Assembly: GCF_004353825.1 (NCBI RefSeq)
Contig: NZ_SMNA01000005.1
Span: 1 to 64,000 of the forward strand
Origin: Occultella glacieicola
Lineage (GTDB): Bacteria; Actinomycetota; Actinomycetes; Actinomycetales; Beutenbergiaceae
Direction: 5' to 3'
Length of the DNA stretch: 64,000 nt
Made by a program: the position numbers and the translations under genes. Under the pieces are notes generated by a model, which was not told the origin of the DNA, made no database searches, and saw only the letters and a program-made list of their open reading frames with translations. Each line of letters begins with the position of its first letter. Position 1 is the stretch's first letter. Of the stretch, positions 3,608-6,390 are shown one piece after another.

Positions 3608-4444
3608 TCAGGCCCCGAACGCCGCGAGCACGTCCCGCGCGAGACCGATCCGCCGCACCCGGTCCTGGGCGCCGGTGCCGTCCGGCGCGGAGATCACGAC
3701 CCGGGCACCGTCGGAGGCCACCGTGAGCGGCGCATCCAGGTGACCGACGAGCGCCCCGAGCAGGCGCGCGACCACGGGTGCCACGAGCGGGAGGTCGGCA
3801 GCCGGGGCCATCAGGGTCACCTTCGCGGGCAGCCCCGACCCCGGCTGCAGGGTCATCGCGCGGGCGTCCACGATGCCCGGGAACGGCTCCCAGCGGTCGA
3901 ACCCGCGATCGGCGTCTACCCCGGCCGCGAACACCGGCAACGGCGCTCGGGCGGCCAGCGCCACGAGCTCACGGCGGGCCTCGCCGTAGGCGTTCACCCG
4001 ATGCAGCGGTTCCTCGCTGCGCCAGGACTCGACGCGCGCGTCCCGACCCTCGACGTGGCCGGCCATCGCCCGTCGTGGCCCGACGAGCCGATGCCGGCGC
4101 GGCAGGGCGAGCGGCACGAGCGCCGGATCGACCGTCTCCTGAGGCACCAGGTGCCAACCGTTCGCCTCCGCCCAGACCGCCCATTCGCCGTCGTACGCCT
4201 GCTCGTCGGCGAGCGCCCGGGACTCGGCGAGGCGGGTGTACAAAGTGGCCCCGGCACCGAACGCGACCAGGAGCAGCACCACGACGAGGACGGTGGTCCA
4301 GGGCTGCCCGAGCCGCGAGAGTGCGCCCGTGGCCGCCAGCAGGAACAGGACCAGCAGCGGCGCCAGGATGGCGCCGACCACGACCGGCAGGCCGCGTCGG
4401 CGCCGGTCGTGCTGCGGGCGACCCGACGGCGTCGACCCGCTCAT
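3608..4444 (-). CDS. Two-TM protein at the 3' end of an ESX-like module
   Basis: 278 residues. Two hydrophobic helices lie at about residues 18-40 (LPVVVGAILAPLLVLFLLAA) and 48-66, followed by a ~200-residue cytoplasmic domain. That domain contains WAVWAEANGWHLVPQ, which resembles the opening of DUF3137-type domains. The start overlaps the upstream YbaB-like gene by 4 bp (ATGA), so it belongs to the five-gene minus-strand operon that begins at 6390. Its role is unknown; its position suggests a membrane partner of the secreted-type proteins encoded upstream. Confidence 0.72.
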   Translation of the reverse strand: MSGSTPSGRPQHDRRRRGLPVVVGAILAPLLVLFLLAATGALSRLGQPWTTVLVVVLLLVAFGAGATLYTRLAESRALADEQAYDGEWAVWAEANGWHLVPQETVDPALVPLALPRRHRLVGPRRAMAGHVEGRDARVESWRSEEPLHRVNAYGEARRELVALAARAPLPVFAAGVDADRGFDRWEPFPGIVDARAMTLQPGSGLPAKVTLMAPAADLPLVAPVVARLLGALVGHLDAPLTVASDGARVVISAPDGTGAQDRVRRIGLARDVLAAFGA

Positions 4445-4836
4445 TCGGGAGGTGCGTCGAAGATCCGCGCCGGCAGCCCGTTCCGGTAGGTGCCCTGCAA
4501 CTGCTCCCGGAGTTCGGGCGAGTCGCCGAGCTCGTCCGCGGCGATCTCCTCGACCTGCGCCGCCAGCCGGCGCAGCGCGTCGTCGTGCGCTCGCATCAGG
4601 CTCAGGTTCAGCGCCAGCGGCGAGGACCGGGTGGCGGCCTCGGTGAACTCGACGTCCTGGATCAGCCCGGTCGAGTCGATCACGACCTTGACGTCCCGCT
4701 GCGGCGACCACGACTCGATCCGGACCCCACCGAGCCGGTCGTTGGCGCTGCGCATGGCGCCGGCCCGGTCGGTGGCCAGGGCGGTCAGCGCCCGGAGCTG
4801 TCGCACCGACTCCTCGTAACCCGCTTGCCAGGACAT
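4441..4836 (-). CDS. YbaB/EbfC-like protein, ESX (EspL-like) context
   Basis: 131 residues with the helix-strand-helix plan of YbaB/EbfC proteins: an N-terminal helix, the strands VRIESWSPQRDVKVVIDSTG and IQDVEF, then a long C-terminal helix LMRAHDDALRRLAAQVEEIA. YbaB-like proteins in mycobacterial ESX-1 loci (EspL) stabilise secreted substrates. The neighbouring EspC-like and WXG-like genes make that comparison reasonable. It overlaps the upstream gene by 1 bp and the downstream gene by 4 bp. Nucleoid binding is the alternative role. Confidence 0.72.
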   Translation of the reverse strand: MSWQAGYEESVRQLRALTALATDRAGAMRSANDRLGGVRIESWSPQRDVKVVIDSTGLIQDVEFTEAATRSSPLALNLSLMRAHDDALRRLAAQVEEIAADELGDSPELREQLQGTYRNGLPARIFDAPPE

Positions 4837-5696
4837 CAGTCCGTCGCCTCCTGTACGCCGCCGTAGCCGGCATTACCCAGTCCCGCGATGCCCGGGATGA
4901 TGTCGCCGAGCTGTGGACCACCGGAGTTCAGGACCGTCTCCAGCTTCTTCAGCGACGGCACCAGTTCGGTCAGGGTCCCGTCGAGGCTCTGGACCAGGGT
5001 GGCGAACTTCTCGATCGCCGCCGTGACCTTCTCGATCCAGTCCGCTGCCCTGGTGCTCCACTTCGCGATCGTGGTCGCAGCCTGCGCCCCGATCCAGGCC
5101 AGGCCGATCCCGACCGTGGCGAGGCACTCGACCACCCACGAGATGAGCTTGCCGACCAGATCCGCGATCAGGTCACGGACGATCGCACGGACCGCTGCGA
5201 CGATGCCGCTCGCGACCGCGAACCCGACACTGAGCCCGGTCGCGACGCCCGCCATCGACGAGATCGTGCCGCTGGTGATGTTCGCAACCTGGCGGTAGGT
5301 GTCCGCCGTGGCGCCGATCCATGGCTCGAGCGCGGCCTGGACGGCGGCATCGAAGTCGGCGGCGACGGTGGTCAGGTGGCTGGAGATGTTCGACCAGGTG
5401 TCCGAGATCGCTGTGACCTCGGCCGGGTCGCCGGCCAGGATGTCCAGGAACTCCGGCAGCGGCGGCATGTGGTCCAGCAGGAACCCGGCGACGCTCGAGG
5501 CGAGGGTCGCGATCGGGTCGACCACCGCGGCGGCGAGGTCCGTGACGGACCCCGCGAGCCCGAACAGGGCCCCCGCCCAGTTCCCGTTCTGCACGGACTC
5601 GACGGTGCTGTCGATCGGCCCGACGATCTTCAGGCTCTGGTACCACTCGCCCAGTTCGGGCCGGTCGACCGTGACCGGTGCTACCAGCTCGCTCAC
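4836..5696 (-). CDS. WXG100-like protein with long hydrophobic C-terminal region
   Basis: 286 residues from a GTG overlapping the upstream EspC-like stop by 4 bp. Residues ~95-145 form a helical hairpin: a helix beginning TWSNISSHL, then LEPWIGATADTYRQ, which carries a WxG turn followed by a Y-x3 spacing as in WXG100 substrates. An Ala/Gly-rich hydrophobic stretch follows (SVGFAVASGIVAAVRAIV, then ATVGIGLAWIGAQAATTI), with two or three membrane-capable helices. The C-terminal ~50 residues form an amphipathic helix (IEKVTAAIEKFATLVQSLDG). There is no toxin domain or signal peptide. It is probably a secreted or pore-like ESX substrate; this is inference. Confidence 0.7.
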   Translation of the reverse strand: MSELVAPVTVDRPELGEWYQSLKIVGPIDSTVESVQNGNWAGALFGLAGSVTDLAAAVVDPIATLASSVAGFLLDHMPPLPEFLDILAGDPAEVTAISDTWSNISSHLTTVAADFDAAVQAALEPWIGATADTYRQVANITSGTISSMAGVATGLSVGFAVASGIVAAVRAIVRDLIADLVGKLISWVVECLATVGIGLAWIGAQAATTIAKWSTRAADWIEKVTAAIEKFATLVQSLDGTLTELVPSLKKLETVLNSGGPQLGDIIPGIAGLGNAGYGGVQEATD

Positions 5697-6010
5697 AGCG
5701 ACTCGATGAACTTCGTGAGCCGGCCCGCCGTGTACTGATCGACGGTGTCGTAGTTGTTCGCGATGGCGGTGAGGGTGGTACCGAGCCCTCCCACCACGCC
5801 CTGCGACCCGGCGATCCCGGCCTGCCCGATGGCCTGCACCGCGTTCGCCGGCGGCGTCAGGAAACTGCACAGGATCCCGAAGGCGTGGGCCGACATCTGC
5901 GTCGCGGTCCCGGCCGCCGACCGAGCCTCCCCGATCCGTGCCGCGATCCCGGCGACGTCGTTCGCGTGCGCCCGCACCGCGTCCGTGTCGACCTCGAGGT
6001 CGAATCCCAT
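5693..6010 (-). CDS. EspC-like type VII secretion target protein
   Basis: 105 residues, all helical, with no signal peptide. The opening (FDLEVDTDAVRAHANDV) and the AFGILCSFLTPPANAV turn are typical of the EspC/T7SS-target family: two helices around a conserved aromatic/Pro turn, then a C-terminal Y-x3-D segment (NNYDTVDQYT). Such proteins are exported by ESX systems, often as dimers with a WXG or PPE-like partner. The partner here is probably the 286-residue protein whose GTG start overlaps this stop. No ESX core genes (EccB/C/D) are in the window. Confidence 0.75.
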   Translation of the reverse strand: MGFDLEVDTDAVRAHANDVAGIAARIGEARSAAGTATQMSAHAFGILCSFLTPPANAVQAIGQAGIAGSQGVVGGLGTTLTAIANNYDTVDQYTAGRLTKFIESL

Positions 6011-6012
6011 GC

Positions 6013-6390
6013 TCAGAGCCTCCCGTTGATGATGTCGTCCAGGGCGTCGATCGTGGAGGTGTCCGACAACATGCTCGGGTCGGGTCGTCGCGGCGTCGCG
6101 CCACCGGTGAGGTCGCGCCGCGCGGCGGCGAGTGCGGCCAGCAGGCCCTCGCGCAGTTCCTCCGGAGTGAGGTCGATGATCTGCGGTCCGAACTGGGCGT
6201 CGACGAGCAGTCCCTGCCGGTCCACGGTCGCCTGGACGATGCCGTCGTCCGACTCCCCGATGCCGCGGTCCGGCAGATCCTCACCGGTGAGCGCCGTGGC
6301 CTTCGCCTGCGCGGCTTCGAGCTGGGCCCGGATCCGGGCGCGGACCGCTTCGAGCATCTGGGATTGTGACTCCACCGTACGAGGATGCAT
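6013..6390 (-). CDS. YbaB/EbfC-like protein, first gene of the ESX-like module
   Basis: 125 residues. A long N-terminal helix (MLEAVRARIRAQLEAAQAKA) is followed by the strands GIVQATVDRQGLLVDAQFG and the helix LTPEELREGLLAALAAARRD, the YbaB/EbfC layout. The C-terminal tail is disordered. The ATG at 6390 leaves 2 bp to the EspC-like gene, so it heads the operon 6390 to 3608. It is a second, distinct YbaB-like protein in one five-gene unit. The 145 bp to the divergent DUF885 gene must hold both promoters. Confidence 0.75.
   Translation of the reverse strand: MHPRTVESQSQMLEAVRARIRAQLEAAQAKATALTGEDLPDRGIGESDDGIVQATVDRQGLLVDAQFGPQIIDLTPEELREGLLAALAAARRDLTGGATPRRPDPSMLSDTSTIDALDDIINGRL

Follow-up and report, generated by a model that had tools for sequence, protein, structure and literature searches.

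Two YbaB genes frame an EspC-like and WXG-type gene pair in Occultella glacieicola: a probable substrate-and-chaperone cassette encoded far from its ESX machine

Results

The stretch of DNA analyzed here (the window) comprises 64,000 nucleotides, positions 1 to 64,000 of contig NZ_SMNA01000005.1 (C19 in our numbering) from the Occultella glacieicola (Ruaniaceae) assembly GCF_004353825.1, and carries at positions 3608-6390 five tightly packed genes on the minus strand. In the order of transcription these encode a YbaB protein (P1, YbaB-a), an EspC-like protein (P2), a WXG-type protein (P3), a second YbaB protein (P4, YbaB-b) and a membrane protein (P5). P1 (6013..6390, 125 amino acids (aa), ATG start) is a predicted cytosolic chaperone subunit, while P2 (5693..6010, 105 aa, ATG), the small partner, and P3 (4836..5696, 286 aa, GTG) are predicted ESX substrates. 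They are followed by P4 (4441..4836, 131 aa, ATG), predicted to be a second chaperone subunit, and by the predicted membrane partner P5 (3608..4444, 278 aa, ATG), in which two N-terminal transmembrane (TM) segments precede a soluble domain of ~200 aa. A gap of 2 bp separates P1 from P2, whereas P2 and P3 overlap by 4 bp, P3 and P4 by 1 bp, and P4 and P5 by 4 bp. An earlier annotation made from the sequence alone (hereafter the original prediction) had given the same coordinates, strand and gene order, and had described the four junctions as overlapping or 2 bp apart, in agreement with our measurements of -4 to +2 bp. Comparison with Occultella aeris and O. gossypii, whose P3 genes are ~87% identical to that of the window, yielded ratios of nonsynonymous to synonymous substitution (Ka/Ks) of 0.09-0.32 over P1-P5, indicating purifying selection on all five genes, which therefore look real.

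The assignment of the module to ESX secretion, the T7SSa branch of type VII secretion systems (T7SS), starts from the P2-P3 pair. P2 scored 43.7 bits against the Pfam family T7SS_ESX_EspC (PF10824; cut-off 23.5 bits) and was the sole EspC match in the Occultella genome at E<=0.01. Its C-terminal YxxxD motif, YDTVD (residues 87-91), lies after the helices, and in this motif column 60 of 72 aligned rows have Y and 7 have F, with D or E four residues further on in 71 of the 72. The WxG turn of P3 (W126, G128) is contained in the sequence PWIGATADTY, the position of which had been correctly predicted, and is found in 30 of 32 aligned homologs. Together, the YxxxD of P2 and the WxG of P3 make up the bipartite ESX signal. 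A P3 profile also matched solved ESAT-6-like chains (best 2.9e-4). The P3 sequence itself scored below the Pfam cut-offs for WXG100 (23.1 versus 27.3 bits) and for EspA_EspE (PF18879; 19.2 versus 27 bits), and for the latter reason we do not regard it as a member of the EspA/EspE family, but only as a protein that may work like one. No toxin family matched P3 at E<=10, and its designation as a toxin was dropped because no toxin domain was found. The "long hydrophobic tail" ascribed to P3 was partly right: hydrophobic windows are present at residues 41-74 and 148-203, but the end of the protein beyond residue 203 is coiled-coil-like rather than hydrophobic.

Homologs of P3 occur in short forms, as in the window, and in long forms, the latter mostly in Pseudonocardiales. 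Counted by gene, 81 P3 genes are located in 77 named loci; an earlier locus survey had counted P3 matches, some of them twice per gene. In a tree built from 45 of 101 rows, after removal of 11 contig-edge rows and thinning of long rows that were over 80% alike, a single branch with a support of only 77 separated the short forms from the others (1 change compared to 13.9 in shuffles); the short forms span Ruaniaceae, Microbacterium and Nocardioides. Eighteen short-P3 modules were examined, those of the window, of genomes G008, G009 (two modules), G010, G001, G021, G017 and G002, and of loci L030, L051, L055, L072, L078, L080, L090, L142 and L152. The order P1-P2-P3-P4-P5 that the original prediction had read in the window is kept in 14 of these 18 modules, the fifth gene being assigned partly by position only; the exceptions are L030 (P5 first), L072 (P5-P2-P3-P1-P4), L142 (no P5 seen) and L152 (a P5-like gene before P4). 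The models for P1-P5 were built from Ruaniaceae rows, and matches at L027-L029 are therefore built in, while the gene order at these loci was established separately. G021 has an additional P3 gene after P5, and the EspC-like gene at L020 11740-12100 in this genome matches in frame only over the first ~57-60 residues, which may reflect an assembly error or damage. In the window, the module is flanked by what look from the sequence like the acyl-CoA carboxylase genes accD/accE on one side and a DUF885-like gene on the other.

Among the 57 long P3 genes away from contig edges, 38 have an EspC-like gene as well as a YbaB gene in their vicinity, 1 has only an EspC-like gene, and 18 have neither. 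When 35 long P3 proteins were scanned, RHS (7 proteins), Endonuclea_NS_2 (5), YwqJ deaminase (4), EndoU (1) and Toxin-deaminase (1) domains were detected, and the remaining proteins had long extensions that matched no named toxin family at E<=0.01; at the same threshold EspA_EspE was matched in 14 and PPE in 17 of the 35. G001 possesses a P3 form with a GH-E nuclease domain. Taken over six loci (L019, L023, L024, L174-L176), this genome contains one five-gene module, two long-P3 units, of which the GH-E form is one, and four units with fused YbaB domains (described below), a large ESX cargo repertoire. In G201, an EspC-like domain lies within a 447-aa open frame (L151 9452-10795), possibly a fused or extended EspC-type partner.

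The two YbaB proteins of the module straddle the Pfam YbaB/EbfC (PF02575) cut-off of 25.5 bits, P4 scoring 25.6 and P1 24.7, and a whole-genome search likewise placed P4 over and P1 under it. The claim that two different YbaB genes flank the substrate genes was borne out by phylogeny. The P1 proteins of Ruaniaceae, Microbacterium and Nocardioides formed one clade (support 97/98), and the P4 proteins formed a clade of their own (support 92/97), separate both from P1 and from the YbaB proteins of long-P3 loci; the YbaB proteins of G080 (upstream gene) and L152 were exceptions or long branches in this tree. Two YbaB genes were found near P3 in all 13 short modules of the locus survey that are situated away from contig edges. 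The family name, and the description of YbaB proteins as nucleoid-associated, would also fit a role of P1 and P4 as DNA-binding regulators of the neighboring substrate genes instead of chaperones. However, both proteins are acidic (pI, the isoelectric point, 4.5 for P1 and 4.8 for P4), and, in mycobacteria, work on EspL excluded an influence on the transcription of espE, espF and espH, while work on an EspH deletion measured espE/espF mRNA on this same point. We consider regulation a very improbable function of this gene pair.

The same PF02575 search of the Occultella genome (E<=0.1) returned four stretches and no canonical YbaB/EbfC; two of the stretches are P1 and P4, and the other two lie in a single 255-aa protein encoded on contig C1 (41.3 bits). 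This double-YbaB protein heads a second cassette (L160 5196-7469; C1, ~149.2-151.5 kb), in which it is followed by a small EspC/PE-like protein of 104 aa, a WXG-type protein of 233 aa with a WxG motif and a hydrophobic end, and a four-TM protein. The 104-aa and 233-aa proteins matched P2 and P3 weakly (0.044 and 0.0035, respectively, in a search of this genome), and the P3 model matched the WXG-type protein of a double-YbaB unit in G010 at 7.7e-9. Seven further units were found at six further loci (G010, G163, four units in G001, and G006); in all of them small and WXG-type genes come after the YbaB gene, which contains two YbaB domain matches in six units and one in that of G006. A trailing membrane protein is present in the double-YbaB units of the Occultella genome, G010 and G163. 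In a tree of YbaB domains, the first halves formed one clade (support 96/99), and a branch supported at 91/86 put 6 of 7 second halves on the same side as P1. The co-inheritance of two YbaB families, and the existence of fused double-YbaB versions, one of them in a second unit of the same genome, suggest that P1 and P4 form a YbaB heterodimer.

P5 is the most divergent of the five proteins and evolves fast. By hydropathy, its two TM segments lie close to the N-terminus, which is basic (overall pI 9.9) and from which the soluble domain is predicted to be cytosolic. No Pfam, NCBIfam or PDB family was reached by P5, and EccE was rejected as its identity, since no EccE appeared among the Pfam matches at E<=10 and no PDB relative was found. 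Its assignment in G021, G002, L078 and the second module of G009 relied on position together with weak similarity.

A fast-evolving membrane protein next to a WXG-type protein is also what a toxin-immunity unit would offer, in which P3 would act as a membrane-acting antibacterial toxin exported together with P2, P5 would be the membrane immunity protein, and the YbaB proteins would serve as export chaperones; homologs of the P3 domain do head toxin proteins, as listed above for RHS, Endonuclea_NS_2, YwqJ and GH-E. However, the long P3 forms retain the same N-terminal region, including its hydrophobic part, and the region therefore looks like a delivery region. Moreover, P3 evolves under purifying selection (Ka/Ks 0.16-0.18 in comparison with the two congeners), the additional P3 of G021 has no adjoining P5 of its own, and the P5 domain is predicted to face the cytosol, so that we regard this explanation as unlikely. 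Still less probable, and the least probable of the explanations considered, is a degenerate toxin locus, a remnant that would have persisted after a YbaB-EspC-toxin unit had lost its toxin part. Purifying selection acts on all five genes, a specific second YbaB family accompanies the short forms, and these share one side of a single branch across Ruaniaceae, Microbacterium and Nocardioides, even though long forms with EspC-like and YbaB neighbors, the kind of unit from which such a remnant would derive, are common (38 of 57).

No ESX core gene is among the five, as the original prediction had noted, and the ecc genes that it proposed to look for were found elsewhere in the genome. Contig C14 carries two WXG100 genes, an S8 mycosin and genes for EccB and for EccD (with a YukD domain), all scoring above the respective Pfam cut-offs. 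EccC, likewise over the cut-off, is encoded on C21; this was the only ESX system detected. Beside the esx pair on C14, a second open frame, subtilase-like as judged by reading (L002 1120-3033), lies opposite the core mycP. In G001 the five-gene module lies between rarD and FNR and adjoins mycP-eccB-eccD, while in the Occultella genome rarD and FNR adjoin each other beside mycP, and long-type YbaB-EspC-P3 units are situated near the ESX core in G127 and G201. A rule by which the module always lies beside the core proved false, with core genes at 1 of 86 loci checked (L019, G001); among 14 further loci, one of which was the eccC locus of the Occultella genome, the core was near P3 at L145 and L151.

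Across genomes, P3 was accompanied by EccB. Within the family, P3 was detected in 8 of 24 genomes, and EccB was present in all 8 of these compared to 6 of the 16 others (p=0.006); in genus g8, P3 and EccB were found in the identical 2 of 8 genomes. Within the order (248 genomes, 23 with a P3 match), EccB was present in 16 of 16 genomes with a strong match compared to 28 of the 232 others, with p=7e-14, although the line between strong and weak matches (E<=1e-30) was drawn after the matches had been seen and both p-values are too small because the genomes are related. EccB was further found in 20 of 20 genomes searched, from 21 of the 77 named P3 loci. EspG was not found in the Occultella genome at E<=0.1, and no EspG exceeded the cut-off in any of 16 further module genomes, in which two weak matches fell below it and one of which (G225) is 67% complete, while EspG was present in 6 of 7 long-form genomes searched. 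Of the two possibilities left by the original prediction, the conserved gene order and the presence of an ESX core in the genome favor a remote accessory unit of an ESX system over a self-contained one, since the module contains no ATPase or membrane core and the P3 homologs track EccB.

Discussion

Taken together, our results suggest, with a probability of about three in four, that the five-gene module serves the only ESX (T7SSa) system detected in this cell as a cassette of substrate and chaperone genes, encoded far from the machine and similar in kind to EspE/EspF/EspH. According to the mechanism that we propose, P2 and P3, with their YxxxD and WxG motifs, would pair into a helical-bundle substrate carrying a composite ESX signal. 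P1 and P4, most likely as a heterodimer, would act as a cytosolic chaperone and keep the hydrophobic P3 shielded up to its hand-over, while P5 may anchor the complex at the membrane through its cytosolic domain, and EccC, EccB and EccD would then export the P2-P3 pair. Secretion, pairing, chaperone action and heterodimer formation, as well as the topology and role of P5, are in this model inferred from sequence comparisons. The predicted function of P1 and P4 as chaperones of P2-P3 fits published work on EspH, EspL and EspD.

Several observations weigh against this interpretation, in addition to the reservations on the statistics given above. As single sequences, P1 and P3 fall short of the Pfam cut-offs. 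The upstream YbaB of G080 does not join the P1 clade, and P5, which is supported by position or weak similarity only in several modules, was not found in G080. Some long-P3 loci of family f17 carry two YbaB genes of their own, and a second YbaB is therefore not unique to the short branch. EccB was found in 5 of the 7 genomes with weaker P3 matches, and its occurrence without P3 in 28 genomes indicates that ESX does not require the module.

The closest parallels are provided by the EspE-EspF-EspH and EspA-EspC-EspD units with EspL of mycobacterial ESX-1, which likewise combine a small EspC/EspF-like protein, a longer EspA/EspE-type partner and YbaB-like proteins. EspH binds EspE and is required for the secretion of EspE and EspF (PMC6107294), and EspL interacts with EspD and stabilizes EspE, EspF and EspH (PMC6319747). 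Co-precipitation led to the proposal of an EspL-EspD chaperone complex, that is, of two different interacting YbaB-like proteins, and espACD is placed more than 260 kb from ESX-1, similarly distant from its machine. In contrast to these units, P3 of the module falls short of the EspA_EspE cut-off, one operon holds the two YbaB genes around the substrate pair together with the gene of a P5-type membrane protein, and the module genomes have no EspG over the cut-off. PE-PPE-EspG and EspB-EspK (T7SSa) resemble the module in combining a two-partner WxG/YxxxD-type substrate with a dedicated chaperone; unlike PE-PPE-EspG, the module belongs to a genome without detected EspG and has YbaB-like proteins in its place. 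In this context, a published overview of T7SS variants lists EspG-type chaperones and reports that some ESX-4-type systems lack EspG.

Similarities extend to systems that deliver toxins. LXG toxins (T7SSb), which have Lap partners and EsaE, share with the module a trafficking domain, small partners and a chaperone, but they belong to another phylum and to other families, and no toxin domain was found in the P3 of the module. The P3 family resembles the WXG-type polymorphic toxins (PMC3482391) in that the P3 domain is N-terminal in long RHS, nuclease and deaminase proteins, whereas P3 of the window belongs to the short branch and lacks such a domain; the term YbaB is not mentioned in the searched text of that paper. 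No account of the five-gene module or of double-YbaB units was found in the literature searched, which comprised papers other than subscription articles and preprints.

More tentatively, and at somewhat less than even odds, the module and the double-YbaB units might represent a more general arrangement of EspG-less T7SSa, in which an obligate heterodimer of two YbaB proteins, encoded by flanking genes or as a fusion, would be the chaperone for a cargo lineage that shares the delivery domain of toxins and carries no warhead, with P5 as membrane dock. Our findings bear on cargo recognition in ESX systems without EspG, as the cargo genes are accompanied across families by a YbaB pair, of which fused versions exist. 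Should the heterodimer prove real, the proposed EspL-EspD complex would gain an evolutionary counterpart that is testable in harmless actinobacteria. The comparison of a toxin-free pair with its toxin-bearing homologs may also help to tell delivery and killing apart in ESX-mediated antagonism.

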